This document shows positions 47,388 to 64,000 of a stretch of DNA of 64,000 nucleotides, one piece after another; the first letter of the stretch is position 1; every line of letters starts with the position of its first letter. Location: the NCBI GenBank assembly GCA_900473795.1, contig UCMT01000026.1, positions 124,001 to 188,000 on the forward strand. The letters run 5' to 3'. The notes under the pieces are model-generated. The model was not told the DNA's origin. It searched no databases and worked only from the letters and a program-made list of their open reading frames with translations. The position numbers and the translations under genes are program-made. The DNA is from Hyphomicrobiales bacterium (GTDB lineage Bacteria > Pseudomonadota > Alphaproteobacteria > Rhizobiales > Rhizobiaceae).

Positions 47388-49285
47388 TTACCCGCCGAAC
47401 CACCCTTGGAATGCTTGCCTCCGTACTGGTGCCGGGTACGAGCCGCGCCACTTCGGAGCCTGATTTTCTCCGGCCGTATCTGCGCGCGCAGACACTGCCG
47501 GTTCTCGGCGAGCGGATTCCGAAAAATCCGCGCCGCGTCAATCTTGCCGCCATGGGTCGTGAGTCCGGCAAATATGGCGGAACGGCCCGCATGCTGATCG
47601 GCAGCCAGAAGGACATCCGATATATGACGATCAACGGCTATTCCCGTCTGGTCGGCTATGACGAGCACCTGCAGTTCCAGCCGGATATCCTTGAAAGTTT
47701 CGACGTCCAGGAAGGCCGCATTTTCACGTTCAAGATACGCGACGGCCATCGCTGGTCGAATGGCAGCTACCTGACAGCCGAGGATTTCCGCTACACGTGG
47801 GAAGATGTGATCCTCGACAAGGATCTGCGCAAGGGCGGCGTCCAGCGCGAACTTCTTGCCGATGGCAAGCCGCCCGTCTTCGAGGTTCTGGACGAATTGA
47901 CCGTCCGCTACACCTGGAGTGCGCCGAACCCGGACTTTCTCCCGGGTCTTGCAGCCGCGTCCCCGATCATCCTGCTTTTGCCCTCCGCCTATATGCGGCA
48001 TTTCCACAAGAAGTATCAGGACGAATTTCGTCTCTCGGCGCTGATGAAACAGTACCGCGCCAAGAAATGGGCTGACCTGCATATCAAGATGTCGCGGCAG
48101 TACCGCCCTGAAAACCCCGATCTGCCGACGCTTGATCCGTGGGTCAACAGGACTGCACCGCCGGCCGAGCAATTCGTCTTCGAGCGCAATCCCTTCTTCC
48201 ACCGGGTCGATGAAAACGGGCTGCAACTGCCCTATATCGACCGCTTCCTGCTCAATATCAGCTCCTCCGAAATCATCCCGGCCAAAACGGGGGCGGGCGA
48301 GAGCGATCTTCAGTCGACGGGCGTCGATTTCTCCGACTATGCGTTTTTCAAGGACTCGGAAAAACGCTACCCGGTGAAGGTCAATCTGTGGAAGAGAACG
48401 GAAGGCTCCCGCATCGCCCTTTTGCCCAACCTCAACTGCAGCGACAAGGTGTGGCGCGACCTGTTCTGGGACGTGCGGGTGCGTCGGGCGCTTTCGCTCG
48501 CGATCGACCGGCACGAGATCAACATGGTCAGCTTCTATGGCCTTGGCACGGAAAGTGCCGACACGATCCTTCCGGAAAGCCCGCTGTTCAAGCCCGAATA
48601 TGCCTCGGCCTGGGCCAGCCACGATCCGGACCAGGCCAATGCGCTGCTGGACGAGGTCGGTCTTACACAGAAAAACAGCGCGGGCGTTCGTCTCCTGCCG
48701 GATGGGCGCGAGGCCCAGATCGTCATCGAGACCGCAGGTGAAAGCACGCTCGAAACCGATGTTCTGGAGTTGATCAAGGATCACTGGATGAAAATCGGTT
48801 TCTCGCTTTTCATCAAGACATCGCAGCGCGACGTTTTCCGCAGCCGCGCGATGGGTGGCGACCTCATGATGTCGATGTGGAACGGCCTCGAAAACGGGGT
48901 GCCTACGGCGGACATGAACCCGGCGCGCCTTGCGCCAAGCGCCGACGACCAATTGCAGTGGCCGGTCTGGGGTATGTACTACCTCTCCCTTGAACAAAAC
49001 GGACATGCTCCGGAATTGCCGGAAGCGGCCAAGCTTGTCGAGCTGTTGAAGGAATGGCGCAGGACCGTCAATACCCCCGAAAGGACGCGGATCTGGCACG
49101 AGATGCTCGATATCTACACGCAGAACGTATTTTCGATCGGCATCGTCAACGCGACCCTTCAGCCGGTGCTCCATTCATCCCGTCTCCGCAACGTTCCCGA
49201 AAAGGGTCTCTACGGGTTCGATCCGACCTGTTTTCTCGGCGTCTACATGCCGGATACCTTCTGGTACAGCAGCGAGGTTAGCTGA
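47384..49285 (+). CDS. Periplasmic binding protein, oligopeptide family 5 (SBP_bac_5)
   Basis: This 633-residue protein starts at GTG 47384, overlapping the ATPase stop (GTGA), with GGGAG 8 bases upstream. It has a twin-arginine-like signal (MITRRTTLGMLASVLV...) and the family's core: FKIRDGHRWSNGSYLTAEDF, DVRVRRALSLAIDRHEIN, and the ending FDPTCFLGVYMPDTF. The length is greater than the usual 530, and the N-terminus has extra text (AQTLPVLGERIPKNPRRVN). A large or branched ligand such as a glycan or peptide fragment is plausible given the neighbours. Confidence 0.9.
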   Translation: MITRRTTLGMLASVLVPGTSRATSEPDFLRPYLRAQTLPVLGERIPKNPRRVNLAAMGRESGKYGGTARMLIGSQKDIRYMTINGYSRLVGYDEHLQFQPDILESFDVQEGRIFTFKIRDGHRWSNGSYLTAEDFRYTWEDVILDKDLRKGGVQRELLADGKPPVFEVLDELTVRYTWSAPNPDFLPGLAAASPIILLLPSAYMRHFHKKYQDEFRLSALMKQYRAKKWADLHIKMSRQYRPENPDLPTLDPWVNRTAPPAEQFVFERNPFFHRVDENGLQLPYIDRFLLNISSSEIIPAKTGAGESDLQSTGVDFSDYAFFKDSEKRYPVKVNLWKRTEGSRIALLPNLNCSDKVWRDLFWDVRVRRALSLAIDRHEINMVSFYGLGTESADTILPESPLFKPEYASAWASHDPDQANALLDEVGLTQKNSAGVRLLPDGREAQIVIETAGESTLETDVLELIKDHWMKIGFSLFIKTSQRDVFRSRAMGGDLMMSMWNGLENGVPTADMNPARLAPSADDQLQWPVWGMYYLSLEQNGHAPELPEAAKLVELLKEWRRTVNTPERTRIWHEMLDIYTQNVFSIGIVNATLQPVLHSSRLRNVPEKGLYGFDPTCFLGVYMPDTFWYSSEVS

Positions 49286-49287
49286 TC

Positions 49288-50286
49288 ATGTTGCGTTACA
49301 TATTCTGGCGCATTCTGGCGATGATCCCGACGCTGTTGATCATCTCCGCGCTGGTCTTCACCATCATCGAACTGCCGCCGGGCGACTATTTCGAAAGCTA
49401 CATCTCCGAACTGCGCGCCCAGGGCGAAGCCGTGGACATGGCGGAGATCGAAGAGCTGCGCGCCCAATACGGCTTCGACCGCCCGCCAGTGCTGCGCTAT
49501 TTCCATTGGGTTGCCGGCATGCTGCAGGGCGACTACGGCTATTCCTTCGAATACCAGCTTCCCGTCAACGAGGTTGTCGGCGATCGCCTCTGGCTGACCG
49601 TGCTCGTCTCCTTCGTCACCATCCTGTTCACCTGGCTGGTTGCCTTTCCGATCGGCATCTATTCCGCCACTCATCAATATAGCTGGGGCGACTATGGCCT
49701 CACGTTCCTCGGCTTGATCGGCATCGCCATTCCGAACTTCATGTTCGCATTGATCCTGATGTATTTCGCCAATATCTGGTTCGGGACCTCCATCGGCCAC
49801 TTGATGGACCAGAAATACCTGGCCGAGCCGATGAGCTGGGAGAAGATGAAGTCGATCCTGGAGCACCTGTGGATCCCGGTGCTGATCGTCGGCACCGCGG
49901 GCACCGCCGGCATGATCCGAAGGCTGCGCGCCAACCTGCTCGACGAGCTGCAAAAACAATATGTCGTGACTGCCCGTGCCAAGGGCTTGCATCCGTTCCG
50001 TGCACTGGTCAAATATCCGCTGCGCATGGCACTCAACTTCTTCATCTCCGATATCGGTTCGATCCTGCCGGCGATCATTTCCGGTGCCGAAATCACCGCC
50101 ATCGTTCTGTCTCTCGAAACAACGGGTCCGATGCTGATAAAAGCGTTGCAAAGCCAGGATATGTATCTTGCCGGCTCGTTCCTGATGTTCCTGGCATTCC
50201 TGACAGTGATCGGCGTGCTCATCTCGGACATTGCGCTTGCCCTGCTCGATCCGCGCATCAGACTGCAAGGCGGTAGCACCAAGTGA
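49288..50286 (+). CDS. ABC permease, DppB-like
   Basis: This 332-residue inner-membrane protein begins with the typical MLRYIFWRILAMIPTLLIISALVFTIIELPPGDY and has the EAA motif VTARAKGLHPFRALVKYPLRMAL. A soluble insert of about 25 residues (YISELRAQGEAVDMAEIEELRAQYG) follows the first helix. It partners the DppC-like permease and the two-domain ATPase. It begins 2 bases after the binding-protein stop. Confidence 0.92.
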   Translation: MLRYIFWRILAMIPTLLIISALVFTIIELPPGDYFESYISELRAQGEAVDMAEIEELRAQYGFDRPPVLRYFHWVAGMLQGDYGYSFEYQLPVNEVVGDRLWLTVLVSFVTILFTWLVAFPIGIYSATHQYSWGDYGLTFLGLIGIAIPNFMFALILMYFANIWFGTSIGHLMDQKYLAEPMSWEKMKSILEHLWIPVLIVGTAGTAGMIRRLRANLLDELQKQYVVTARAKGLHPFRALVKYPLRMALNFFISDIGSILPAIISGAEITAIVLSLETTGPMLIKALQSQDMYLAGSFLMFLAFLTVIGVLISDIALALLDPRIRLQGGSTK

Positions 50287-51458
50287 CGATATCCCTTCCC
50301 GAATCCGGCGCGCCGCTGGCGCACTACGTATCGACCGCGCCCTTCGACCCGCATTCCGTCGACGTGATGACCGAGGAGCAATCGCGCGTCTATCAGGCGT
50401 CGCAGATGCGGCTGATGTGGTGGAAGTTCAAGAAACACCGCCTGGCACTGTACTCGCTCTATTTCCTCGGTTTTCTCTACGCGATCATCGCCATCGTCGA
50501 GCTCCTGGCACCCTATAACCTGCACACGCGCAACGTCGATTTCATCCATTCGCCGCCGCAGCGGGTTCACTTCTTCCATGACGGCAATTTCGTCGGACCG
50601 TTCGTCTATGGACGCACAATGACGCTCGACATGGACACGCTGCGCCGCATCTACACCGACGATGTGAACAAGGTCGAACCGATCCGTTTCTTCTGCAGCG
50701 GCGACAGCTACCGGTTCTGGGGCCTGTTCGAAGCCAACAAGCACCTGGTCTGCCCGGCCAAGGACGGACAGCTGTTCCTGCTCGGCAGCGACCGTCTCGG
50801 GCGTGACGTCCTGTCGCGCATTCTCTATGGCGCCCGCATATCGCTGACCATCGGCCTGCTCGGCATCACCATGAGCTTCGTGCTCGGCATCGTCATCGGC
50901 GGTCTCGCCGGCTATCACGGCGGCGTCTTCGACCTGATCGTCCAGCGCATCATCGAGGTGCTGCAATCCATCCCGAGCATCCCGCTGTGGATGGCGCTGG
51001 CAGCGATCATGCCGGTGACCTGGAGCCCGATCCTCATCTATCTCGGCATCACGGCCATTCTCGGCATGCTCGACTGGACGGGCCTCGCGCGCGCCGTGCG
51101 CTCGAAGCTGTTGGCGTTGCGCGAGGAAGACTACGTTCTGGCTGCGCAGCTGATGGGCGCCGGCTCGAGCCGCGTCATCGGCCGCCATCTCGTCCCCGGC
51201 TTCATGTCGCACCTGATCGCCACGGCGACGATGTCGATCCCCGGCATGATCCTCGGCGAAACCGCGCTCAGCTTCCTGGGCCTGGGTCTGCGTCCGCCGA
51301 TCACCAGCTGGGGCATTCTTTTGACGGAAGCCCGCAGCGTCAGCGTCATTGCATTTTATCCCTGGCTGTTGTTTCCAACCATTCCGGTCATTCTCGTGAT
51401 TCTGGCGTTCAATTTCCTGGGCGACGGTCTTCGGGATGCTGCCGACCCCTATAAGTGA
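50283..51458 (+). CDS. ABC permease, DppC-like, with a large periplasmic insert
   Basis: This 391-residue protein starts at a GTG overlapping the previous stop (GTGA). The core has DRLGRDVLSRILYGARISL and the coupling loop LAAQLMGAGSSRVIGRHLVPGF. After the first helix it carries about 90 extra residues (DFIHSPPQRVHFFHDGNFVG ... LVCPAKDGQLFLL), longer than in most DppC proteins. The insert, on the periplasmic side, may help ligand capture from the binding protein. The same insert type occurs in related glycan/peptide importers, but I cannot test this here. Confidence 0.88.
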   Translation: MTISLPESGAPLAHYVSTAPFDPHSVDVMTEEQSRVYQASQMRLMWWKFKKHRLALYSLYFLGFLYAIIAIVELLAPYNLHTRNVDFIHSPPQRVHFFHDGNFVGPFVYGRTMTLDMDTLRRIYTDDVNKVEPIRFFCSGDSYRFWGLFEANKHLVCPAKDGQLFLLGSDRLGRDVLSRILYGARISLTIGLLGITMSFVLGIVIGGLAGYHGGVFDLIVQRIIEVLQSIPSIPLWMALAAIMPVTWSPILIYLGITAILGMLDWTGLARAVRSKLLALREEDYVLAAQLMGAGSSRVIGRHLVPGFMSHLIATATMSIPGMILGETALSFLGLGLRPPITSWGILLTEARSVSVIAFYPWLLFPTIPVILVILAFNFLGDGLRDAADPYK

Positions 51459-51518: not shown

Positions 51519-52727
51519 ATGACCCGTCGGATCGAAGACGCCCGGATCCTGATGTACAGCCACGACACGTTCGGCCTCGGTCATCTCCGGCGCTGTCGCA
51601 CGATCGCGCATTCGCTGGTCGAGGACTATCGCGGTCTCAACATCCTGATCATCTCGGGCGCGACGATCGCCGGTGCCTTCGACTATCGGGCCCGCGTCGA
51701 TTTCGTGAAGATCCCGAGCGTCATCAAGCTACGCAACGGCGAATATACGTCGATGGACCGGCATATCGACCTGCACGAGACGCTGAAGATGCGCAAGTCG
51801 ATCATCCGTCACACGGCGGAGACCTTTCAGCCGGACATCTTCATCGTCGACAAGGAGCCGATGGGCCTGCAGGGCGAAGTCGAGGAGACGCTCGCCTATC
51901 TGAAGAGGCAGGGAACGACCCTCGTTCTTGGCCTTCGTGAAGTCATGGACGCCCCGCATCTGCTCGATGCGGAGTGGAAAGCCAACGACGTGATGCGCAA
52001 GATCGGCCAGTTCTACGACAACGTCTGGGTCTATGGTCCGCCGGATTTCTACGATCCGCTCGTCGGTCTCGATGTTCCGCCGCATGTCCGGGCGAAGATG
52101 GATTTCGTCGGCTTCCTGCAGCGAAGCGTCTCGCAGGACGTCGAGTCCGAACACAAGCCGAAAGGCGAGTACATCTTGGTGACCACCGGCGGCGGCGGCG
52201 ACGGTTCCGATCTGATCCACGACGTGATCGACGCCTATCAGGAAGATCCGACCCTGACGCACAAGTCATTGATCGTTCTTGGTCCGTATATGCCGGCAAA
52301 GCAGCGCCACAAGCTTTTGACGAAATGTGCGAAGGTCCCCTCTCTCGAGGTGATCGAATTCGACAATCGCATGGAAGAGCTGATCGCCGGCGCCAAGGCC
52401 GTGGTGGCCATGGGCGGCTACAACACCTATTGCGAAATCCTGTCCTTCGACAAGCCGGCGCTGATCGTGCCACGCGTGATGCCGCGCGAAGAGCAGCTGA
52501 TCCGCGCCAGCCGCGCCGCCGAGCTTGGATTGATCGACATGCTCCGGCCCGAGGAAGCACGCGACCCGATGCGCTTTGCCGCCGCCCTCAAGGCCCTGCC
52601 CGACCGCGCTCCGCCATCGAAAAGCGCGGCCGGCATGACGCTTGAAGGACTGGTAAACATATCGCAGACCGTTGGCGAATGGCTTGGCCGCCGCGAACAT
52701 GAGCACCTGACCGTCGTTAAGGGGTGA
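51519..52727 (+). CDS. Glycosyltransferase, MurG/GT-B type
   Basis: This 402-residue protein has the start DARILMYSHDTFGLGHLRRCRTIAHSL (GHLxR) and the C-terminal VVAMGGYNTYCEILSFDKPALIVPRVMPREEQLIRA, which are features of MurG-like GT-B enzymes. The middle part (DIFIVDKEPMGLQGEVEETL) is typical of a family annotated as predicted glycosyltransferase. It is the first of three glycosyltransferases in a row on the plus strand. The upstream AAGGGG is 8 bases from the ATG. It would transfer a sugar from a nucleotide donor onto a lipid or oligosaccharide acceptor. Confidence 0.85.
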   Translation: MTRRIEDARILMYSHDTFGLGHLRRCRTIAHSLVEDYRGLNILIISGATIAGAFDYRARVDFVKIPSVIKLRNGEYTSMDRHIDLHETLKMRKSIIRHTAETFQPDIFIVDKEPMGLQGEVEETLAYLKRQGTTLVLGLREVMDAPHLLDAEWKANDVMRKIGQFYDNVWVYGPPDFYDPLVGLDVPPHVRAKMDFVGFLQRSVSQDVESEHKPKGEYILVTTGGGGDGSDLIHDVIDAYQEDPTLTHKSLIVLGPYMPAKQRHKLLTKCAKVPSLEVIEFDNRMEELIAGAKAVVAMGGYNTYCEILSFDKPALIVPRVMPREEQLIRASRAAELGLIDMLRPEEARDPMRFAAALKALPDRAPPSKSAAGMTLEGLVNISQTVGEWLGRREHEHLTVVKG

Positions 52728-52734
52728 TTTCACT

Positions 52735-53982
52735 TTGACGCAACGCCGCAAGATCGTCGTGGTGCTGAAGGGATATCCGCGCCTTTCGGAAACCTTCATC
52801 GCCCAGGAACTGCTTGGATTGGAACGGGCCGGTTTCGAACTGGCGCTGGTGGCGCTGCGCCGCCCGACGGACAAGAAGCGCCACCCGGTGCATGACGAAA
52901 TCCGCGCCCCGGTTCACTACCTGCCGGAATATCTGCACGAGGAGCCTTTGCGGGTTGCCCGCGCCTTCGCGCACTGCCTTGCGAAACCCGGCTTCTGGCG
53001 CAGCCTTCCGGCATTCATGGCCGATCTCTGGCGCGACCGGACACGCAACCGGGTTCGGCGCTTCGGCCAGGCGATGGTTCTCTCTGCGGAGTGGCCGAAG
53101 GGCGGCGACTGGCTGCACGCCCACTTCATCCACACGCCGGCTTCCGTTACGCGCTACACCAGCACGATCACCGGTATCGCCTGGACCTGCTCGGCCCACG
53201 CCAAGGACATCTGGACGTCGCCGGCATGGGAACTTGCCGGCAAGCTCGCCAGCACGCGCTGGACCGTGACCTGCACGCAGACCGGATTTGAGCATTTGCG
53301 CCATCTTGCCGGCGGCAGGCCGCACGTGCATCTGAGCTATCATGGGCTCGATCTCAGCCGCTTCGGCGTCTTTGACGGCGTCCGGTCGTCGTTCGACGGC
53401 TCGCAGCCGGAAACGCCCGTGACGATCATGAGCGTCGGCCGTGCCGTCGAGAAGAAGGGCTTCGACGTTCTGCTGCGCGCGCTCAGCCTGCTCCCCAACG
53501 ATCTCCATTGGCGGTTCGAGCACATTGGCGGCGGCGAACAGCTGAAGAAACTTCAGGCGCTGGCGGCCGAACTCGGCATCGCGAACAAGGTGACCTGGCA
53601 CGGACCGCTGTCGCAGACGGAGGTTTTGCATCACTATCGCAGCGCCGATGTCTTCGCCCTCGCCTGCCGCATCACCGCTGATGGTGATCGCGACGGGCTG
53701 CCGAACGTATTGGTCGAAGCATCGAGCCAGGCTCTGGTCTGCGTCTCGACGAACATTTCGGGCGTACCGGAATTGCTCATCGACGGCGAAAATGGCTTTG
53801 TTGTCCCGCCCGAGGATCCGCAAGCCCTTGCCAATGCCTTGGAACGAGCCATCCGCGATCCGGCCCTGCGCCAGCGGCTGGGCGAAGCGGCGGAAAGAAC
53901 CGTGCGGCGCGAGTTCGACCACCAGACCAGCATCCACCAACTGAAAACCCTCTTCGAGACCGAATGGCAGGCAGCGCAATGA
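52735..53982 (+). CDS. Glycosyltransferase family 4 (colanic-acid WcaL-like)
   Basis: This 415-residue GT-B protein starts at TTG 52735, with AAGGGGTG upstream, 7 bases after the preceding stop. It has IVVVLKGYPRLSETFIAQELLGLERAGF at the N-terminus, which is the WcaL/AmsK pattern, and the C-terminal donor site ITADGDRDGLPNVLVEASSQALVCVSTNISGVPELL (EX7E-like), with GFVVPPEDP after. It would extend a polysaccharide repeat unit. It overlaps the next glycosyltransferase by 4 bases. Confidence 0.88.
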   Translation: MTQRRKIVVVLKGYPRLSETFIAQELLGLERAGFELALVALRRPTDKKRHPVHDEIRAPVHYLPEYLHEEPLRVARAFAHCLAKPGFWRSLPAFMADLWRDRTRNRVRRFGQAMVLSAEWPKGGDWLHAHFIHTPASVTRYTSTITGIAWTCSAHAKDIWTSPAWELAGKLASTRWTVTCTQTGFEHLRHLAGGRPHVHLSYHGLDLSRFGVFDGVRSSFDGSQPETPVTIMSVGRAVEKKGFDVLLRALSLLPNDLHWRFEHIGGGEQLKKLQALAAELGIANKVTWHGPLSQTEVLHHYRSADVFALACRITADGDRDGLPNVLVEASSQALVCVSTNISGVPELLIDGENGFVVPPEDPQALANALERAIRDPALRQRLGEAAERTVRREFDHQTSIHQLKTLFETEWQAAQ

Positions 53983-55124
53983 CCGATGGCCAGACCGCGT
54001 CGCCGCGCGTCTTTTTCTATGTCCAGCACCTGCTCGGCATCGGTCATCTGGCGCGCGCCAGCCGTATTGCCCGGGCGCTTGCCGAGGACGGTTTCGACGT
54101 GACGGTGGTGACCGGCGGCACGCCGGTGACCGGCTTTCCCGGCCCACTTGTGCGCCACATCGCCTTGCCGACGATCACGGCTGGCGACGCCGGCTTTTCC
54201 GGGCTTGCCGACATCGACGGCAAGCCGGTCGATGATGCCTTCAAGGACAGTCGCCGCGACCTCTTGCTGGCGGCATTCCGCGAAAACCAGCCCGACATTG
54301 TCATCATCGAAGCCTTTCCCTTCGGCCGTCGCCAGGTCCGCTTCGAACTTCTGCCGCTGCTCGACGAGATCGCCGCGATGGACAACCGGCCCATGGTGAT
54401 GACCTCGCTGCGCGATATCCTGCAGGAGCGCTCCAAGCCCGGCCGCGACGAGGAAACGGTGGCAGTATTGAAACAGTATTTCGACCGGGTTCTCGTTCAT
54501 GGGGACCCGGCCTTCGCACGGCTGGAAGATACGTTTCCTCCCGCCGCCGAGATCGCCGACAAGGTCATCTATACCGGCCTCGTTGCAGCACCGCCGCCCG
54601 CAGAACCGGCAGAGCGTTTCGACATCATCGTATCGGCCGGCGGCGGCGCCGTCGGCAACGCTTTGATCCGTGCAGCGCTTGAAGCGGCAAAATCGATCGA
54701 CAAGCGCCTGTCCTGGGCCTTGATCACCGGTCCCAACCTGCCGCAGTCCGATTTCGACGCCATTTCTTCGGCTGCGCCGGCGCATGTCAGCGTTTATCGC
54801 TTCCGCCCGGATTTTGCGAGCCTTCTCAAGGGCGCCAAGCTGTCCGTGTCACAAGCCGGCTACAACACGGTTTGCGACATTCTGCGGGCCGGATGCCATC
54901 CCCTGCTCATCCCCTTTACCGCCGGCGGCGAAACCGAGCAGACGGTCAGAGCCGAACGCCTCGAAAAGCTGGGCCTCGCCCATGTCCTGCCCGAGGAAAC
55001 GCTGTCGCCCCAGACCATGATGCAAGGGATCGAATCGGCGCTCGCGGTCTCCGGCCATCCGCCGCACAGGCTCGATCTCGATGGCGCGCAGCGCACGGCA
55101 GAAATTCTGCGCGGTCTCCTCTGA
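53979..55124 (+). CDS. Glycosyltransferase, MurG/GT-B type, second copy
   Basis: This 381-residue protein resembles the one at 51519 in plan: FYVQHLLGIGHLARASRIARAL at the N-terminus and LSVSQAGYNTVCDILRAGCHPLLIPFTAGGETEQTVRAERL at the C-terminus. In these proteins, Q-A-G-Y-N-T binds the nucleotide sugar. The start ATG 53979 overlaps the previous stop (ATGA). The reading frame is open further upstream, but the overlap is the best start. The two GT-B copies flanking a WcaL-like one suggest assembly of a multi-sugar unit. Confidence 0.87.
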   Translation: MTDGQTASPRVFFYVQHLLGIGHLARASRIARALAEDGFDVTVVTGGTPVTGFPGPLVRHIALPTITAGDAGFSGLADIDGKPVDDAFKDSRRDLLLAAFRENQPDIVIIEAFPFGRRQVRFELLPLLDEIAAMDNRPMVMTSLRDILQERSKPGRDEETVAVLKQYFDRVLVHGDPAFARLEDTFPPAAEIADKVIYTGLVAAPPPAEPAERFDIIVSAGGGAVGNALIRAALEAAKSIDKRLSWALITGPNLPQSDFDAISSAAPAHVSVYRFRPDFASLLKGAKLSVSQAGYNTVCDILRAGCHPLLIPFTAGGETEQTVRAERLEKLGLAHVLPEETLSPQTMMQGIESALAVSGHPPHRLDLDGAQRTAEILRGLL

Positions 55125-55131
55125 CCGGCGA

Positions 55132-55809
55132 TCAGACGGTGCCGATCACCATGAAGCGGGTGTATTTCTTCATCGCCAGCGCGCCGGCAAAGGCAACGTG
55201 GCGGAGTGCCGTCTGCTCCTGGAAGGCCTCAAGCGTCGGCACGCAGTTGATGTGCGTGGGCTCGCTGAAATAATCGTTGGATTGCAACAGGACCTGCGTA
55301 CCCCGCGGCAGCAAAGACAGCCATGCCGGAAGATCGGCGATGTGTTCGCAACTGGTGTTGATCACCAGATCTGCCCCAAAAGTCTCGTAATCGAGCCCGT
55401 ACATATCCTGCGTGACTGCACGAAAACGCTCGCCCGCCTTGGCATTCAGCGTCTCGGCCACTTCGGCAACTTCTGGATCGATATCGACGCTCTCGATCAC
55501 CCCGATCTTGAAGCGGCTGTCGTCAAAAAACATCGCCGACAGCACGCCGTACCAGCCGCCGAGAACGACGATGTGGTTAAATTTTCCGCCGAGGCTTTCA
55601 AACAGGCTGTCGCGCGCCCATATCTTGCATCCAACCTGCTTGTGGTTGAAGGCCGTACCCAAGTCCGCGTCCGGATATTTGGCCACGACTTTCGCAAGAC
55701 CTTCGACCAGAGAGCTTCCCGTATAGGCGGCCAGACCGCGGATAATATCGAAGGCACTTTCGTGCCAATCTGTTGTGTTTGCTTCGTTTGTTCGGGTGGT
55801 TTTCATCAT
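55132..55809 (-). CDS. SAM-dependent methyltransferase-like protein
   Basis: This 225-residue protein has a Rossmann core with FNHIVVLGGWYGVLSAMFFDD (motif I region, degenerate), IGVIESVDIDPEVAEVAE (motif II, acidic residues) and ADLVINTSCEHIADLPAWLSLLPRG. The methyltransferase fold is likely, and a sugar or glycan substrate is possible. It is transcribed opposite to the surrounding glycosyltransferases. Its start region is divergent from the next gene by 38 bases. Two adjacent start ATGs (MMKTT) have no strong ribosome-binding site. Confidence 0.75.
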   Translation of the reverse strand: MMKTTRTNEANTTDWHESAFDIIRGLAAYTGSSLVEGLAKVVAKYPDADLGTAFNHKQVGCKIWARDSLFESLGGKFNHIVVLGGWYGVLSAMFFDDSRFKIGVIESVDIDPEVAEVAETLNAKAGERFRAVTQDMYGLDYETFGADLVINTSCEHIADLPAWLSLLPRGTQVLLQSNDYFSEPTHINCVPTLEAFQEQTALRHVAFAGALAMKKYTRFMVIGTV

Positions 55810-56455: not shown

Positions 56456-59173
56456 ATGGAAAAACGTCTCGCCCGATATATCTGGACCCATACGCGCGGT
56501 CAGCAGCTCTGGATTCTGCTGGTCGTCGCGATCTCGATGGTTCCCTATTTCCTGTCATTCGACCTGCCCAAGCAGATCGTCAACGGACCCATCCAGGGCC
56601 AGGGCTTCGATCAGCCGGGCGCCACCCAGACCTTCATGAACATCAGCTTCGACCTGCCCTGGCTCGGGCCGGTCACGCTGTTTGACGGCATCGATCTGAC
56701 GCGCATGCAGATGCTGTTCGCGCTTAGCCTCGTGTTCCTCGTGCTCGTGATCGTCAACGGACTCTTCAAATTCTACATCAACACCTATAAGGGGCGCCTC
56801 GGCGAGCGGCTGCTGCGCCGAATTCGCTTCGAACTCGTCGACCGCATCCTGCGTTTTCCGCCCAGCCAGTTCAAACGCATGAAGGGGGCGGAAGTCGCCA
56901 GCATGGTAAAGGACGAGGTCGAACCGCTCGGCGGCTTCACCGGCGACGCCTTCGTGCAGCCGGCGCTGCTCGGTGGACAAGCGCTGACGGCGTTGTTCTT
57001 CATCTTCATGCAGAATGCCTGGCTCGGGCTGATTGCCGCTGTCATGGTCGGCGTCCAGGCGCTGATCATTCCGCGCATGCGCCGGCGTCTGCTGGTGCTC
57101 GGCCGCGAACGCCAGATCACCGCACGCGAGCTTGCCGGCCGCGTCAGCGAAATCGTCGACGGCATCGGCACGATCCACGCCTATGATACCTCAAACTACG
57201 AGCGCGCCGACATCGCCTCTCGCCTCGGCCGCATCTTCAAGATCCGCTATGACCTCTACCAGTGGAAATTCCTGGTCAAGTTCATCAACAATTTCCTCGC
57301 CCAGCTGACACCCTTCCTGTTCTACTGCATCGGCGGCTACCTGGCGCTGCAAGGCCGCCTCGACATCGGCCAGCTGATCGCCGTGATCAGCGCCTACAAG
57401 GACCTGCCCGGTCCGCTGAAGGACCTGATCGACTGGGATCAGACGCGTCAGGACGTGCAGGTGAAATACGTTCAGGTCGTCGAGCAGTTCAGCGTCGACC
57501 GGACGATCGAGCCGTCCATTCAGGCAGTCGCCATCCAGGACCCCGGTTCGATGAAACACCCGCTGGCCGCGGTCAACCTGTCGCTCGCCGACGATAGCGG
57601 CGCCAAGCTCCTGGAGCGCGTTTCCGTGCAGATCCACCCCGGCGAAACGGTCGCGATCGTCGGCGGTGCGGCCGGTGGCGGCGACATGCTGGCCGAAGCC
57701 TTTGCCCGCCTCACCTGGCCCGAGAGCGGCAAGATCACTGCCGGCGGCGACGATCTGCTGGAACTGCCGGAATCCATCACCGGACGCGGCATTTCCTATG
57801 TCTCGGCCGACACCTACTTCTTCTACGGCACCCTGCGCGACAACCTGCTCTACGGCCTCAAGCACGCACCGTTGAAAGATGCCGCCTATGAGGGGAGCGG
57901 GGCCGCCCATCGCAAATGGGAGATCAACGAAGCAAAGATGGCCGGAAACCCGGACCATGACGTCAACGGCGACTGGATCGACTATCAGGCCGCCAATGCG
58001 ACGGACCGGGCCGATCTCTTCGCGCCGGTCCTGTCGGTCCTCGACACCGTGCAGCTGTCGAAAGACATTCTCGATCTTGCACTTCGCAGCACCGTGTCTC
58101 CGGACGATCATCCCGGCCTTGCCGAAGGCATCGTCGAGATGCGGCATGCCCTTCGCGACGAGCTTGAGGAAGCCGGCTTGAGCAGCCTCGTCGTCTCGTT
58201 CGAGCCGGGCGCCTACAACACCGAGGCGACCGTCGGCGAAAACCTGTTGTTCGGCACCGCGACCGGTCCCGCATTCGTCGGCAAGGCGATCGGCAGGAAT
58301 GCCTATTTCCGCTCGGTGGTCGGCCGCACCGGCCTCGACCGCATCATGTTCGACATGGGCTACAGCATCGCGGAAAACGCGGTGGAACTGTTTGCCGACC
58401 TGCCGCCGGATCACCCGTTCTTCCAGCAGCTCACCTTCATGACGGCGGACGACATTCCGGAATATCAGCTGCTGCTGCAGAAACTCAAAGGCAAGGGCTT
58501 CGACGCTGCCTCCGAGGATGAAAAAGGCGCCATCATCCGCCTGAGCTTCCGCTATATCGAGCCGCGGCACCGTTTCGGTCTGCTCACCGACGAACTGATG
58601 GCGAAGATCGTCGATGTCCGCCGCCAGTTCCATGACGGCCTGCCGGAGAATATGCGCGGCGATATCGAACGTTACGACCCGGAACATTACCAGGCATCTG
58701 CAAGCCTGATGGACAACATCCTGTTCGGCCGCATCAGTCACAAGCATTCGGACGGTTCGAAGCGCATCCGCTCGATCGTCAGTTCACTGCTGAATTCGCT
58801 GGGCCTGTTGGAGCAGGTGATCGATATCGGCCTGGACTTCAATCTCGGTGCCGGCGGCAAGCGCTTGACCGCGGTACAGCGGCAGAAGCTCAATCTGGCG
58901 CGTGCACTGGTGCGCCGTTCAGATTATTATATCCTTAACCGTCCGCTACCCGGTCTCGACCACCGCCTGCAGGATGAAATCGTCCGTGACGTGCTGAAGC
59001 TCGTGCGCCGGGATGGACGTGATCCGGCGGTCGTCTGGGTCCTTTCGAATACCGCTCTGTCGAGCCTTTTCGACCGTGTCCTGGTCTTCGACCGAGGCAT
59101 GCTGGTGGAAGACGGAACACATGCGGCACTTGTTGAGAATAACGGTATCTTTAAGGAACTTGTGTCATCATAA
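56456..59173 (+). CDS. Pseudo-ABC exporter: ABC-type membrane domain with a catalytically degenerate, inserted nucleotide-binding domain
   Basis: This 905-residue protein has an ABC-exporter membrane domain (about residues 13-330; helices near 17-36, 82-104, 170-205 and 280-300) followed by an NBD-like region. Every ATPase motif is altered: Walker A reads GGAAGGGDM (403-411, Lys to Gly), the Q-loop Gln is Ala451, LSGGQ is LTAVQ (804-808), Walker B DE is Asn828-Arg829, and the switch His is Asn865. About 325 residues (about 470-795) are inserted between the Q-loop and signature regions. The exporter motif NLLYG/NLLFG/NILFG occurs three times (near 463, 596 and 753). It should not hydrolyse ATP on its own. 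It follows glycosyltransferases and is followed by a cyclic-nucleotide-binding protein. A TTG at 56444 is an alternative start. Confidence 0.85.
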   Translation: MEKRLARYIWTHTRGQQLWILLVVAISMVPYFLSFDLPKQIVNGPIQGQGFDQPGATQTFMNISFDLPWLGPVTLFDGIDLTRMQMLFALSLVFLVLVIVNGLFKFYINTYKGRLGERLLRRIRFELVDRILRFPPSQFKRMKGAEVASMVKDEVEPLGGFTGDAFVQPALLGGQALTALFFIFMQNAWLGLIAAVMVGVQALIIPRMRRRLLVLGRERQITARELAGRVSEIVDGIGTIHAYDTSNYERADIASRLGRIFKIRYDLYQWKFLVKFINNFLAQLTPFLFYCIGGYLALQGRLDIGQLIAVISAYKDLPGPLKDLIDWDQTRQDVQVKYVQVVEQFSVDRTIEPSIQAVAIQDPGSMKHPLAAVNLSLADDSGAKLLERVSVQIHPGETVAIVGGAAGGGDMLAEAFARLTWPESGKITAGGDDLLELPESITGRGISYVSADTYFFYGTLRDNLLYGLKHAPLKDAAYEGSGAAHRKWEINEAKMAGNPDHDVNGDWIDYQAANATDRADLFAPVLSVLDTVQLSKDILDLALRSTVSPDDHPGLAEGIVEMRHALRDELEEAGLSSLVVSFEPGAYNTEATVGENLLFGTATGPAFVGKAIGRNAYFRSVVGRTGLDRIMFDMGYSIAENAVELFADLPPDHPFFQQLTFMTADDIPEYQLLLQKLKGKGFDAASEDEKGAIIRLSFRYIEPRHRFGLLTDELMAKIVDVRRQFHDGLPENMRGDIERYDPEHYQASASLMDNILFGRISHKHSDGSKRIRSIVSSLLNSLGLLEQVIDIGLDFNLGAGGKRLTAVQRQKLNLARALVRRSDYYILNRPLPGLDHRLQDEIVRDVLKLVRRDGRDPAVVWVLSNTALSSLFDRVLVFDRGMLVEDGTHAALVENNGIFKELVSS

Positions 59174-59281: not shown

Positions 59282-59755
59282 ATGGGCACGGAAATGCTTC
59301 TGAAGGATGAAGTTCAAATGCTGCGGCGCGTGCCGCTCTTTTCCAATGTCGAGCCGGGAAAGCTGAAGCTTCTCGCCTTCACATCGGACCGTGTCAGCTA
59401 CGATGCCGGCGAGGCCATCTTCCACCAGGGCGACACCGGCGATGCGGCCTATGTCGTGCTCGCGGGCAAGGCGGATATCCTGGTCGACTCTTCGACTGGC
59501 CCGATCAAGATCGCCGAGGTCGAAACCAATTCCATTGTCGGCGAGATTGCCATCCTCTGTGACGTCTCGCGAACCGCCACGGTGCAGACGACAACAGCGG
59601 TGGAAGCCCTGCGCATTCGCAAGGAACACTTCCTCAAGCTCCTGACCGATTTCCCCGAAATCACCATCGAGATCATGCGCGTGCTGGCGGACCGTTTGAG
59701 CCACACGACCAGCGAATTGTCCGAGGCGAGAAGCCGCGCGCGCAAGGCCGAGTAA
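59282..59755 (+). CDS. Stand-alone cyclic-nucleotide-binding-domain protein
   Basis: This 157-residue protein is a single CAP/CNB domain: LFSNVEPGKLKLLAFTSDRV, then FHQGDTGDAAYVVLAGKADILV, and the phosphate-binding cassette with Gly87-Glu88 and Arg97-Thr98-Ala99 (VGEIAILCDVSRTATV). The Glu and Arg needed to bind cAMP or cGMP are present. No helix-turn-helix follows, so it is not a usual Crp regulator and could act by protein contact. It lies 108 bases after the pseudo-ABC gene on the same strand, with GGGAGG 10 bases from the ATG. The C-terminus is a short basic helix. Confidence 0.87.
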   Translation: MGTEMLLKDEVQMLRRVPLFSNVEPGKLKLLAFTSDRVSYDAGEAIFHQGDTGDAAYVVLAGKADILVDSSTGPIKIAEVETNSIVGEIAILCDVSRTATVQTTTAVEALRIRKEHFLKLLTDFPEITIEIMRVLADRLSHTTSELSEARSRARKAE

Positions 59756-59785: not shown

Positions 59786-61594
59786 TCAGTTGCTCCCGAG
59801 CCTCTCCAGTGGCGCATTCGCCATCGGATCTCTCAAGGTGATGGCTCCGCTTGTCCGGTCGATACGGAAATTGCCTGACGGCAGACCGGAGATGGATTTC
59901 TCGAACATCCTGAAGATGAGGGCAAAGCGCGCCTGCGCCGCATTCGCGTCGTTCCAATCACCGTCGGCATAAAGGCGGCCAACCGCCTGATAAAGCACCA
60001 TCCGCCCGTCGGCGACCCAGTCGAGAGCGAGATCGCTGCCCATGCGCAGCCGATACCAGTCGGCGAGGAAATCCATTGCGGAAATGTCGCGCAGCAGCTC
60101 AGGTCTGGCGCCGGCGCCTTTCAACCGCGCCGCGAGGCGGCCTTGCAGCACCCTGTCGGCGCGGGCAGCCGCAGTTGTGCCAATCGCGTCATCCGTCGCC
60201 ACCGGCTTGTCCATCAGAGCCAGCGCTGCCAGATCGGCAAGATCGAGGACGCGGATAAGCGCTGCCATATCCTGCGGCCATTCGCGCTTGAGGAAACGCC
60301 GCCCGACCAGATGGCCGAGATGCTCGAACAGGAATCCGCCATAGTCGCCGACGTCGAGCATGCCGCCCGCATCCAGTCCGGAGGGCACGATCTCCCGGTC
60401 GTAGGTCTGCCGCAATTGCGGGTTCAATGGCATGTCCTCGATCCCGACGGTCTCGATGTCGAGATAGCGCTCGCCGATGGTGATCACCTTATACGCACCG
60501 GGAAAGGCAACGAGCGCCGGCACCGCGACATTGACCAGAAAGCGATCGTCGCTGCGATATTGCGCCGTGTCGTTGACATGCAGATGCCCGCTGAAATGCA
60601 CATCTATGCCGGCCGCGATCAGGGCTTCGGCAACAGCCGCAACCGGAATGCGCTCCGACATGCCCGTCCGGCCAAGTAAGGAAACCTCTTCGTCCGCTGT
60701 TCCGTCGAGAGGATCGAGCACGGGATAGTGGGAGAAAGCCAGAAGGCTTTTGCCCGACCGGCGCGCGCGCGCCGAGACGTCTTTCATCCAGTCAAGGACA
60801 AACTGCTTATGCGTCAGCATGGCGTTCCAGCCGGCGCTGGTGCTGTCGGCCAGATCACCCGCCTCACCCGGCACGGCGCCATCGACCGGGACGAAGACAT
60901 TGGCATCGATCATCAACAGCCAGACGCCGGGAAAGGGCTCGATGAGATAGGACGCGTCCATCAGCGAGCGCGTTGTTTTCCCATCGGGCGAATGCACCTC
61001 GTAGAGGCGGGCCGCAGGATCACCGTCCCTGCCGAACGGCGTTTCCCAATGGAGGTCGCCGGGCCGGGGAAAAAAACCGAAATCCGCCACGGCGTCGAGA
61101 CCGTCCGGATAGCCCTGGCAATACATGCGATCGCTGGCGACGATCGACCGGGCGCCCCGGTCGCGCACATGCGGATCGCTGCTGACAACGCTGTAGCTGC
61201 CATCCTCGTTCATGAACCGTTTGGCGCGGTGCCGGCCAGACGCGCCGAAGATGTCGTGATTGCCGACGGTGGCGTAGAAGCGCATGCCGTAACGCGCCTC
61301 ATAGCCATCAAGCACCTTTTTGACGCCTTGGACGGTTTCCACCTGCCCGTCGTCGGAATAGTCACCGAGCAACACCACGTGGCGAATGCCGCTTGCTGCG
61401 ATCCCGTCGAGCGCGTGGTGAAGGGCAAAGTAGCTCTCGTTGAAGACGCGTGTCGACCGCGCGGTATCGGCGAGCAGCCTGAATGTCAGCCGCCAGTCGC
61501 CCTGCATGATTCCGGGAAAACCAAAATCGGCATAAGGATCATGAAAATGCGCATCGGCAATGACGGCGATGCGCGGATGCTGGGAGGGCGGCAT
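59786..61594 (-). CDS. Calcineurin-like metallophosphoesterase
   Basis: This 602-residue protein has the complete dimetal set: Asp14 and His16 (ADAHFHD), Asp78 and Asp81 (GDYSDDG), Asn112 and His113 (GNHD), His289 (SHYPV), and His337 and His339 (GHLH). The order and the GHLH are typical of the class III phosphodiesterase/calcineurin superfamily. The C-terminal 230 residues, after about 370, are helical and unclassified. Hydrolysis of a cyclic nucleotide or a phosphoester of the glycan pathway is possible; the context of a cyclase and a CNB protein favours the former. It is convergent with the CNB gene. Confidence 0.88.
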   Translation of the reverse strand: MPPSQHPRIAVIADAHFHDPYADFGFPGIMQGDWRLTFRLLADTARSTRVFNESYFALHHALDGIAASGIRHVVLLGDYSDDGQVETVQGVKKVLDGYEARYGMRFYATVGNHDIFGASGRHRAKRFMNEDGSYSVVSSDPHVRDRGARSIVASDRMYCQGYPDGLDAVADFGFFPRPGDLHWETPFGRDGDPAARLYEVHSPDGKTTRSLMDASYLIEPFPGVWLLMIDANVFVPVDGAVPGEAGDLADSTSAGWNAMLTHKQFVLDWMKDVSARARRSGKSLLAFSHYPVLDPLDGTADEEVSLLGRTGMSERIPVAAVAEALIAAGIDVHFSGHLHVNDTAQYRSDDRFLVNVAVPALVAFPGAYKVITIGERYLDIETVGIEDMPLNPQLRQTYDREIVPSGLDAGGMLDVGDYGGFLFEHLGHLVGRRFLKREWPQDMAALIRVLDLADLAALALMDKPVATDDAIGTTAAARADRVLQGRLAARLKGAGARPELLRDISAMDFLADWYRLRMGSDLALDWVADGRMVLYQAVGRLYADGDWNDANAAQARFALIFRMFEKSISGLPSGNFRIDRTSGAITLRDPMANAPLERLGSN

Positions 61595-61822: not shown

Positions 61823-62653
61823 GTGAACGAAAACGTGTTTCGGGTGAGGTTATGGGGAGTGCGCGGCAGTCTCCCGGTCTCGGGAGCCGAATTTCAGCAC
61901 TATGGCGGCAACACCATCTGCATCGAAATGCAATGCGGACCGCATAGATTGCTGTTCGATGCCGGCTCCGGGCTGATGCCCGCCGGCCAGGCGCTCAAGG
62001 CCGCCGGCGTTTCCGATTTCAATCTGTTCTTCACCCACTGTCACTACGACCATATCATCGGCCTGCCCTATCTGCCGGCACTGTTCGATCCGCATGCTTC
62101 GGTGACGCTGTGGTCGGGACATCTGGCCGGGCGTATGTCCACGCGCCAGATGATCGGCGAATTCATGCGGCCGCCGTGGTTTCCCGTTGAGCCGGACATC
62201 TGCCGCGCCGCCATCAATTGCCGCGATTTCCGCTCCGGCGACGTGCTGGCTCCCTATGATGACGTGGCGATCAAGACCGGCAGTCTCAACCACCCAGGCG
62301 GCGCGATCGGCTACCGGGTGGAATGGGGAGGCCGCGCGGTGGCGCTCGTCACGGATACGGAACATCGGCCGGGAACGCTCGATCCGGCCGTGCTCGATCT
62401 CATCGATGGCGCCGATCTGTTCCTCTACGACTGCATGTATACCGACGATGAGATGCCGCGCCATGTCGGCTACGGCCATTCCTCCTGGCAGCAGGCCATC
62501 CGCCTCGCCAAGGCCGCCCGCGCCAAACGGGTGGCTTTCATCCACCACTCGCCGCTGCGCACCGACGTCGAACTCGACGCCATCCAGCGGCTCGCCGTAC
62601 AGGAATTCAAGGGCGCCTTCATGGCGCGTGACGGTCAGGCGATCGACCTCTGA
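61823..62653 (+). CDS. MBL-fold hydrolase of the class II cyclic-nucleotide phosphodiesterase/PhnP-like group
   Basis: This 276-residue protein starts at GTG 61823, after GAGGCGAGA. It opens with RLWGVRGSLPVSGAEFQHYGGNTICIEM and has the metal ligands THCHYDH (His72, His74, Asp76, His77), followed by NHPGGAIGYRVEW, LVTDTEH and IHHSPLRTD. The opening GVRGS plus GGNT layout is shared by RNase Z-like, PhnP and class II cAMP phosphodiesterase relatives. It would cleave a cyclic or phosphodiester bond. It is divergent from the calcineurin-like gene. The 228-base gap between them contains one AGGCTT/AAGCCT hairpin at about 61711-61730 and no other feature I can support. Confidence 0.85.
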   Translation: MNENVFRVRLWGVRGSLPVSGAEFQHYGGNTICIEMQCGPHRLLFDAGSGLMPAGQALKAAGVSDFNLFFTHCHYDHIIGLPYLPALFDPHASVTLWSGHLAGRMSTRQMIGEFMRPPWFPVEPDICRAAINCRDFRSGDVLAPYDDVAIKTGSLNHPGGAIGYRVEWGGRAVALVTDTEHRPGTLDPAVLDLIDGADLFLYDCMYTDDEMPRHVGYGHSSWQQAIRLAKAARAKRVAFIHHSPLRTDVELDAIQRLAVQEFKGAFMARDGQAIDL

Positions 62654-62683: not shown

Positions 62684-63427
62684 TTATTGATCTCGCAGAA
62701 TATCCGTGACCCGGCACCAGCGGCAGGCAGGGTGGCGCGCGGTGCTCCTGAAAAGCGCGTTCATGAAATCCCAGACGGCCTCGTCATGAACGAGATGATG
62801 CGTCAAAAGCCCCAGTGATCCGCCCTGATCGAACATCTGCCCGAGACGCGCAACGATCTCAGCAGCAAGCGCCATCCGGTCGCGTCCGCCGCGCGTACCG
62901 TGCCAGTCCATGACATCGACATGCGCATTCACCGCCGGCAAGGCGGACGGCTTTTCCGGGCCGTAGACCGACAGCGCCTTAAAGCCGATGCCGGCAAGCT
63001 GCGGCACGAGCCCCGCGTCGATCCGGTTCCACGGCGGCACGAGGATGGGGACGAAACGGTTCGGATGCAGCCTCGCCAGATGGCGGAGGCCTTGCTGCAA
63101 CTCGTCGAGCACGTCGGAAGCCGGGCGATGGCGGCCGAGCTCCTGCTTCTTTTCGCCCGCGCCCGCATGGTTCACATGCGACCAGCCGTGCACCGCAACG
63201 GTGCATGACGGCTCGCGCTCCAGTCTCTGAGCGAGCGCATTACCGGTATGGGCCGGAATGACGGCAAGCGTCAGCGGCACGGAAAATGCACTGGCGATCT
63301 CCAGCAGCCTTTCGAGCGGTGCGCTCGGCTCGACCGCATCGTCGTCCCGCAGCCAGAAGCGCGCGACCTTGCCGGCCTGCTGCCACCGGTCCAGTTCCTC
63401 GGTGATAATCCTGTCAAAATCGTCCAT
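62684..63427 (-). CDS. Polysaccharide deacetylase-like protein
   Basis: This 247-residue NodB-homology-type protein has FWLRDDDAVEPSAPLERLLEIA, with the metal-binding Asp triplet at residues 28-30, and HGWSHVNHAG with His80 and His84, matching the HxxxH ligand pair. VPPWNRIDAGLVPQLAGIGF is the typical central motif. It would remove acetyl groups from a glycan. The ATG at 63427 is 1 base from the stop of the glycosyltransferase upstream, so the genes form an operon. The longer frame to 63550 was rejected. Confidence 0.87.
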   Translation of the reverse strand: MDDFDRIITEELDRWQQAGKVARFWLRDDDAVEPSAPLERLLEIASAFSVPLTLAVIPAHTGNALAQRLEREPSCTVAVHGWSHVNHAGAGEKKQELGRHRPASDVLDELQQGLRHLARLHPNRFVPILVPPWNRIDAGLVPQLAGIGFKALSVYGPEKPSALPAVNAHVDVMDWHGTRGGRDRMALAAEIVARLGQMFDQGGSLGLLTHHLVHDEAVWDFMNALFRSTARHPACRWCRVTDILRDQ

Positions 63428-63428
63428 T

Positions 63429-64000
63429 TTATTCCGCCCGCTTGAGATGCCGGTCGAGAACAGTGTCCAATTGCACGGCGGCCCGATCGAGCGAACGCTC
63501 CTCGCCGGCAAAAATCCGTGCCGCTGCGGCAAGCGCGCTGCGCTCCCCATCCCGCGTCAGCAGCCGTTCGATCGCTTTCACATAGGCGTCGACATCACCG
63601 GCTGGCGTCAGCAGGCCGGTACGGCCGTGTTCCACCACTTCCGGCACCCCGGCGATCTCCTGCGCCACGACCGGCAGGCCCGCCGCCTGCGCTTCGAGAT
63701 AGGCGAGACCATAGGCCTCGCCGCAGCCGGGCCAGACATAGAGCGCACTTTGCGCCAGGAGATCAGCGATCTCGCCAGCCGTTTTCTGTCCGTGCCAGAG
63801 GATGCGTCCTTCGTCGAAGCCGGCAAAAAGCGCCCTCACCTCGTCCGCACGGGGGCCATCACCAACGATGGACAGTTGCCAGGGCAGATGAGCCAGTCGT
63901 GCAAGTGCATCCGCCAGCATGACATAGCTCTGCATCTTGTCGCCGGACCGCATCATCGCCACGGTGATCAGCTGTCCGGGCTGAGGCGCGGGTTGCTTGT
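63429..64000 (-). CDS. Glycosyltransferase family 4, C-terminal part (cut by the window edge)
   Basis: The reverse strand stays open from the stop at 63429 to the window edge (190 residues). The readable part, beginning PGQLITVAMMRSGDKMQSY, is the C-terminal Rossmann half of a GT-B enzyme: LSIVGDGPRADEVRALFAG and the donor-binding GEAYGLAYLEAQAAGLPVVAQEIAGVPEVVEHGRTGLL. The N-terminal acceptor domain lies outside. It is the gene before the deacetylase in the same operon and adds a fourth glycosyltransferase to the region. Confidence 0.88.
   Translation of the reverse strand, partial: KQPAPQPGQLITVAMMRSGDKMQSYVMLADALARLAHLPWQLSIVGDGPRADEVRALFAGFDEGRILWHGQKTAGEIADLLAQSALYVWPGCGEAYGLAYLEAQAAGLPVVAQEIAGVPEVVEHGRTGLLTPAGDVDAYVKAIERLLTRDGERSALAAAARIFAGEERSLDRAAVQLDTVLDRHLKRAE

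Follow-up and report, generated by a model that had tools for sequence, protein, structure and literature searches.

An ABC-exporter homologue devoid of intact ATPase motifs and its neighbour with a cyclic-nucleotide-binding domain at a glycosyltransferase locus in the Rhizobiaceae

ATP-binding cassette (ABC) exporters are understood as machines in which a membrane cycle is driven by ATP sites. What might such a protein do once those sites have been lost? The question is raised by a gene from a Hyphomicrobiales bacterium of the Rhizobiaceae, located within the 64,000-nucleotide stretch analysed here (the window; contig UCMT01000026.1 of assembly GCA_900473795.1, positions 124,001 to 188,000). 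Its 905-residue product, hereafter the pseudo-ABC protein, was described in a first-pass annotation as a selected, non-hydrolytic exporter homologue, perhaps a scaffold or passive conduit for glycan transfer. That annotation overlooked a triplicated core in the ATPase domain and a partner protein with a cyclic-nucleotide-binding (cNMP) domain, and the partner suggests regulation rather than mere passivity. Taken as a whole, our best reading is a non-ATPase protein of ABC-exporter fold that would be switched by a cyclic nucleotide through this partner and would serve glycan assembly or export. We give this reading roughly an even chance of being right. The features discussed are collected in Table 1.

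By translation, the frame is free of stops, as had been stated, and its start position, mostly reading MEx, is common to the aligned homologues. Pfam places ABC_membrane at residues 90-312 (1.3e-22) and ABC_tran at residues 386-485 (1.3e-10), the latter covering only the first part of the ATPase domain. Both matches lie above cut-off and assign the protein by homology to the ABC exporter superfamily, with a membrane domain of the type already recognized in the first-pass annotation. The closest NCBIfam model is MsbA (TIGR02203), whose cut-off of 602 bits compares with a score of 171.9, leaving the protein outside the MsbA lipid A exporters. When motif positions are placed on an alignment of 128 homologues, the Walker A region (residues 402-410) reads VGGAAGGGD, with Gly at the Lys position (409) and Asp at the following Ser/Thr position (410). 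The Q-loop position (451) is Ala, the signature (804-808) is LTAVQ, Walker B (828-829) is Asn-Arg and the switch-His position (864) is Ser. The earlier claim that every ATPase motif has been replaced therefore stands, with one correction: the Asn assigned to the switch His is the next residue, 865. In a pairwise alignment, Leu occupies what we take to be the A-loop Tyr site of exporters, while Leu-Asp of the D-loop is retained. A motif scan found no P-loop or LSGGQ pattern elsewhere in the window protein or in the other 33 rows of its clade. The ATPase-domain fold is assigned from sequence profiles, which match canonical exporter ATPase domains at 99.2% (residues 346-444) and 99.7% (residues 734-858). 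From these replacements, ATP hydrolysis has in all likelihood been lost, and ATP binding very probably as well.

Such losses could also mark a decaying gene or a sequencing artefact. The gene is present in 26 of 26 same-genus genomes searched (own included) and occupies a single frame in 25. The exception is G014, a genome that is 78% complete, where the gene is spread over three frames (L035:7332-10210 (-)); neighbouring genes are split as well, and read errors are probably the cause. Among 23 of the 25 genus orthologues, two of other length having been left out, the median pairwise ratio of nonsynonymous to synonymous substitution (dN/dS, or omega) is 0.076. By region, omega is 0.058 for the membrane domain, 0.108 for residues 346-485, 0.094 for 486-790 and 0.063 for 791-905. 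In these same 23 orthologues, the replacement residues are fixed or nearly so: Gly409, Asn828, Arg/Lys829 and Ser864 in all 23 and Asp410 in 22, with the Q-loop position divided between Ser (16) and Ala (7). The first-pass annotation had allowed that canonical Walker motifs in close homologues would reduce this copy to a decaying one. None of the 34 rows of the window clade carries any of the seven positions scored for a functional ATP-driven exporter (Walker A Lys and the Ser/Thr after it, Q-loop Gln, LSGG signature, Walker B Asp and Glu, switch His), and all 125 family rows are in open frame. Decay was rejected on the evidence of purifying selection, and we regard it, like an artefact, as extremely improbable. 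Both the motif loss across the clade and the low omega point to a selected, non-hydrolytic protein, as had been proposed.

The stand-alone cNMP gene begins 108 bases downstream of the pseudo-ABC gene. Across 105 loci, one per genome, a partner gene lies within 600 bases downstream on the same strand in 88, is fused in six and is absent there in eight, the flank being too short in the remaining three; the partner is thus adjacent or fused in 94 of 102 testable loci. In the six fusions (L034, L106, L116, L117, L121 and L130), the partner follows the C-terminus of the pseudo-ABC protein. Gly-Glu of the phosphate-binding cassette is retained in 93 and its Arg in 94 of these 94 partners, from which cyclic-nucleotide binding is predicted. 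In a set of 61 genomes (own included), the partner (E up to 1e-22) occurs in 40 of 40 that have the pseudo-ABC gene, once fused and once in two pieces, versus 1 of 21 that do not. Because adjacency, fusion and co-occurrence agree, it is very likely that the two proteins act jointly. At E up to 0.1 the window partner matches cNMP_binding only, with no helix-turn-helix or other DNA-binding domain. By sequence matches, it shares its ligand domain with CRP/Fnr transcription factors and with channels such as SthK; it differs from the former in the lack of a detectable DNA-binding domain and from the latter in having an ABC-type membrane mate rather than a channel. Cyclic-nucleotide-gated channels show that a ligand domain of this kind can gate a membrane path. 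A plasmid record (L192:17809-18273) labels the Sinorhizobium orthologue of the partner a Crp/Fnr transcriptional regulator. The window contains no match to what we take to be the consensus for the cAMP receptor Clr.

The ATPase domain itself has been enlarged. From Walker A to the signature there are 401 residues in the window protein versus 104 in L175, a canonical exporter from elsewhere in the same genome. MsbA, Sav1866 and BmrA-type (ABCB-like) exporters are homologous in the membrane domain and at both ends of the ATPase domain; the pseudo-ABC protein departs from them in having no intact ATPase motif and about 300 extra residues between Walker A and signature. Within this stretch, profile comparison by hhalign identifies three tandem copies of a Q-loop/helical core of about 60 residues (91-98%). 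M1 carries the core at its normal place behind the N-terminal part, broken by an unmatched stretch; in M2 the copy is formed by the first 63 residues, the remainder having no match; and M3 matches the canonical segment at 71% alone and at 99% together with the signature region. The copies match one another over 54 columns for M1-M2 (91%, E 1e-6), 61 for M1-M3 (91%, E 1.3e-6) and 60 for M2-M3 (98%, E 1.3e-12, or 8.8e-14 if M3 is truncated at the signature). Among the controls, seven pairs reached 0.17-0.29% and 40 column-shuffled comparisons at most 15%; an eighth pair (residues 100-240 versus 200-340) gave 99.4% and was not counted, as its segments overlap by design. At about 60 columns each, the copies explain the extra length only in part. 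Nothing tried matched the last part of M2 or the middle of M1, and a motif search found no second ATP site in the extra stretch. In normal exporters, the Q-loop/helical segment faces the membrane domain. We know of no described exporter with three copies of this core, although no search was aimed at the point.

How general is the loss of motifs? By profile, the family was found in 132 of 385 class-sampled genomes and, at E up to 1e-60, in 32 of 398 phylum-sampled genomes, counts which include some partial matches or membrane-domain-only relatives. A scan of named genomes used the best 80 of 556 confirmed matches, among them Stappia, Roseibium, Pseudovibrio, Azospirillum, Tistrella, Reyranella, Thalassospira, Marinobacterium, Zooshikella and others, as well as metagenome bins named Burkholderiales or Gammaproteobacteria. 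Because these named loci had been chosen beforehand for two conserved membrane-domain peptides and for best score, more canonical relatives may lie beyond the best 80. The family set omits L035, with its split frame, and L115, which has no single frame of 700 residues; duplicates L041, L045 and L051 were also dropped, and the tree further leaves out 24 same-genus copies. Among the 101 non-redundant rows, the Walker A Lys is retained in 53, the Ser/Thr after it in 28, the Q-loop Gln in 18, the LSGG signature in one, the Walker B Asp in 31, its Glu in 53 and the switch His in 22. Asp or Glu replaces the Ser/Thr in 34 of the 53 rows with Lys, and the Ser/Thr is retained in 11. Counting all 125 family rows (own included), nine have an intact P-loop pattern, one an intact signature and none both, and the most canonical row, L081, keeps five of the seven scored positions. 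Besides the window clade, five rows elsewhere in the tree keep none (L034, L072, L103, L113 and L117). The window clade forms a group of ten rows with support of 99/96 in a tree built from the membrane domain only. The minimum number of changes on this tree is 12 each for Lys and His, 16 each for Ser/Thr and Glu, 10 for Gln and 9 for Asp, gain and loss being indistinguishable because the tree is unrooted. The plain reading is that erosion of the ATPase motifs is old, graded and repeated. A sister group of three (L160:7434-10022 (+), L161:6539-9586 (+) and L162:8456-11302 (-)) has the same enlarged ATPase domain and a strongly diverged membrane domain; by eye, it contains no intact ATPase motif.

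The graded pattern bears on two further explanations. ATP might still be bound, unsplit, as a slow structural ligand, with the cNMP protein as an extra layer of control. The Walker A Lys and the Walker B Glu persist in roughly half of the family, and an excerpt of PMC7756269 describes degenerate sites of other exporters that bind MgATP. In the ten tree rows of the window clade, however, Lys has become Ala in six, Gly in three and Ser in one, the Ser/Thr site is acidic in seven, and the Q-loop Gln has also gone, which makes retained binding improbable here. Alternatively, the protein could be half of a heterodimer whose unlinked canonical mate, for which L175 would be a candidate, supplies the ATPase activity. 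Heterodimeric exporters with degenerate motifs in one ATPase domain, such as TM287/288, TmrAB and ABCB2/B3, are well known, and the same excerpt reports that their other site is canonical (PMC7756269). The pseudo-ABC protein differs in that all scored motifs are lost and no linked canonical partner was found: a second exporter-like open reading frame occurs in the flanks of only 1 of 108 loci, many of which have short flanks, and an unlinked mate is still conceivable. With both the signature and Walker A gone, neither composite site would be complete in the two-site geometry that we presume, and so this explanation also appears quite unlikely.

Conservation in the family is concentrated in the membrane domain, which scores 0.69 versus 0.56 for the ATPase domain and is higher in 50 of 50 samples of 11. 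The order is reversed in 11 canonical exporters from the genomes searched (0.51 versus 0.68), where the membrane-domain value is lowered because the set mixes different exporters. These values matter for the view that the protein is purely a scaffold or receptor, a dimer that anchors glycosyltransferases (and perhaps the Opp importer) and reports the cyclic-nucleotide level without any transport. Such a role would agree with the loss of all scored ATPase positions in the window clade, with the enlarged cytosolic domain and its triplicated core, and with the glycosyltransferases nearby; yet a membrane domain that is the best conserved part, and that stands alone in some relatives, better suits a path or substrate site than an anchor. 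Neither point is decisive, and we consider a pure scaffold or receptor rather unlikely.

The relatives that consist of a membrane domain only are L163:8543-9817 (-), L164:7932-9197 (+), L165:7868-9091 (+) and L166:1-1146 (+), the last being cut by a contig end. L163 is flanked by genes for a multicopper oxidase and a PCuAC copper chaperone, and L165 lies near MerR regulators. The scanned neighbours of these two (copper-related, MerR, MauE-like or permease genes and one unmatched) include no ATPase gene.

Table 1. Features of the window and the evidence for each. Fractions of 68 count the loci with a related gene among 68 well-flanked loci (7.5 kb or more upstream and 4 kb or more downstream); matches were counted up to an E of 1e-6, and some may be paralogues.
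Feature	Position	Strand	Evidence
Pseudo-ABC exporter, 905 aa, no intact ATPase motif	56456..59173	+	Translation, Pfam, NCBIfam, homologue alignment
Membrane domain, residues 1-345, best conserved part of family	56456..57490	+	Pfam ABC_membrane, conservation
ATPase domain, N-terminal part, residues 346-444, dead Walker A	57491..57787	+	hhalign 99.2% to canonical ATPase domains
Segment M1, residues 445-574	57788..58177	+	hhalign 97.2% to canonical segment, 29 columns
Segment M2, residues 575-733	58178..58654	+	hhalign: M1 91%, M3 98%, canonical segment 77%
Segment M3, residues 734-797	58655..58846	+	Third core copy, leads into signature region
ATPase domain, C-terminal part, residues 798-905: LTAVQ, NR, Ser for switch His	58847..59173	+	Alignment, hhalign
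Stand-alone cNMP-binding domain protein, 157 aa, cassette GE...RTA	59282..59755	+	Pfam cNMP_binding 2.8e-19
Class III adenylate/guanylate cyclase	43876..45228	+	Pfam Guanylate_cyc 1.9e-07
Peptide-type (Opp) ABC importer: fused ATPase, binding protein, two permeases	45486..51458	+	ATPase homologue 37/68
Glycosyltransferase, GT28 C-terminal domain	51519..52727	+	Pfam 1.3e-08; 59/68
Glycosyltransferase, group 1	52735..53982	+	Pfam 4.1e-37; 60/68
Glycosyltransferase, GT28 C-terminal domain	53964..55124	+	Pfam 3.9e-14; 59/68
Calcineurin-like metallophosphoesterase, 602 aa, between cNMP and MBL genes	59786..61594	-	Pfam Metallophos 1e-10
Metallo-beta-lactamase (MBL)-fold hydrolase, HxHxDH intact	61823..62653	+	Pfam Lactamase_B_2 4.5e-19
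Polysaccharide-deacetylase-like protein	62684..63550	-	Pfam Polysacc_deac_1 0.0029, below cut-off; 56/68
Glycosyltransferase, group 1	63429..63962	-	Pfam Glyco_trans_1_4 1.3e-27; 59/68

The neighbourhood bears on the putative cargo. Both a GT28-type and a group-1 glycosyltransferase occur in 58 of the 68 well-flanked loci and neither in seven. Most of these genes are upstream and on the strand opposite to the pseudo-ABC gene, whereas those of the window share its strand and are likewise upstream. By this association, the pseudo-ABC protein probably serves a glycan pathway, and the scaffold or passive glycan conduit suggested at first pass would fit the same neighbourhood. Returning to the cyclic-nucleotide-switched exporter fold, the protein would act, probably as a homodimer, without hydrolysing and very probably without binding ATP. 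The conformational input would instead come from a cyclic nucleotide bound to the CRP-like partner, adjacent or fused, through a predicted contact that gates the membrane domain. The former ATPase domain, enlarged and carrying three copies of its own membrane-coupling core, would provide docking and transmission. A path would then be opened or closed by the conserved membrane domain for the glycan of the adjoining glycosyltransferase cluster, the putative cargo, or that domain would otherwise regulate the glycan; the odds of a gated path rather than a scaffold are about even. In its boldest form, the idea is that of a cyclic-nucleotide-gated ABC fold, in which the ATP switch was passed stepwise to cAMP or cGMP via a dedicated CRP-like subunit, and what had been an ATP pump turned into a valve for glycan export under second-messenger control, its dead ATPase domain holding the coupling core in triplicate. 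This version is tentative, and we lean towards doubting it.

Genes that could make or remove a cyclic nucleotide are found nearby. The class III cyclase is 11 kb away in the window, and a homologue lies within 4 kb in 22 of 105 loci. In raw counts made without the tree, a cyclase is this close in 21 of 41 rows that lack the Walker A Lys and in 1 of 33 that keep it. By eye, the window cyclase has Ser at what we take to be the purine-selecting Lys/Glu site before the second metal Asp of class III cyclases, and its product is uncertain. The MBL-fold protein also matches, though far short of the cut-offs, an RNase Z model (1.2e-20) and NF041851 (5.5e-14), and could possibly be a cyclic-nucleotide phosphodiesterase. 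In 32 of 105 loci, an MBL-fold gene is no more than 3 kb away, and HxHxDH is intact in 35 of 35 MBL rows. Considering loci with 2.5 kb on both sides, such a gene is within 3 kb in 26 of the 42 rows that have lost the Walker A Lys versus 0 of 33 that keep it, the window row having been scored positive by hand (2.65 kb) because its locus extract is short.

Several observations weigh against a cyclic-nucleotide switch that took over from ATP. The Walker A Lys and the Walker B Glu are each kept in 53 of the 101 non-redundant rows; nucleotide binding may therefore persist elsewhere in the family, where the cNMP partner is found too. The adjacent cNMP gene is missing from 8 of the 102 testable loci (L047, L080, L089, L103, L107, L110, L114 and L127). 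Motif retention is not significantly related to cNMP presence (p = 0.21), nor is the Lys, which is kept in 6 of 8 loci without the cNMP gene versus 45 of 94 with it (p = 0.27). The link between the MBL gene and Lys loss comes down to only three to four independent pairs and does not reach significance on the tree, and in L126 and L129, which keep the Lys, a related MBL gene lies at a distance of about 9.5 kb. The phosphodiesterase and cyclase roles are guesses from weak family matches. Finally, the inverted conservation of the two domains is partly expected, the 11 canonical exporters being mixed paralogues.

Among described proteins, one parallel in architecture is HetC of Nostoc. According to an excerpt of PMC10986499, HetC is an ABC exporter with an N-terminal cNMP domain that is needed for function and binds ppGpp, an essential ATPase residue and a peptidase domain. 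The likeness is in the joining of a cNMP-type domain to an exporter; in contrast to HetC, the window protein has lost its motifs and has no peptidase match in Pfam. A search of open-licence PMC text, with subscription papers and preprints outside its scope, found no description of a protein of this type, and the excerpts of PMC5498481 (on cAMP and Clr in Sinorhizobium meliloti), PMC6180224 and PMC5539429 do not describe one. An orthologue of the pseudo-ABC protein, 68% identical, is encoded on pSymB of S. meliloti, including strain 2011. In strain ml46, the pSymB order is cyclase, polysaccharide lyase, Opp importer, glycosyltransferase, methyltransferase, pseudo-ABC and cNMP gene, the third gene being the methyltransferase and not an MBL gene; by eye, the motifs of this copy are lost and the partner cassette is intact. 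This orthologue may be SMb20813, which is called the msbA homologue of S. meliloti in an excerpt of PMC10945364 that reports no function for it.

If the cyclic-nucleotide reading holds, an exporter fold would work without ATP after being re-wired to a second messenger, within a widespread and selected family of which one clade is motif-free. It would also help to explain a glycosyltransferase locus common to many Alphaproteobacteria. The seemingly intact binding site of the partner, next to an exporter fold stripped of its ATPase motifs, is a hint that bacteria making sugar polymers may have exchanged one nucleotide switch for a different one. The pSymB copy makes the idea directly testable in S. 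meliloti.

Other genes around the pseudo-ABC gene are of less certain relevance. Ten representatives of recurrent neighbours, drawn from Lys-keeping and Lys-lacking loci, comprise five without a match and five others: a zinc peptidase, an endonuclease/exonuclease/phosphatase-family protein, a histidine phosphatase, a short-chain dehydrogenase and a cyclase. The downstream group-1 glycosyltransferase either has its 5' part beyond the window or a misplaced start. The gene divergent from the pseudo-ABC gene (55132-55809 (-)) has a weak methyltransferase match (0.0055, below cut-off); none of its relatives was matched in the same-genus loci L036-L038, and relatives adjoin the pseudo-ABC gene in L034 and L106. 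Among the loci compared, a relative of the metallophosphoesterase was matched only in the window genus and in L024.

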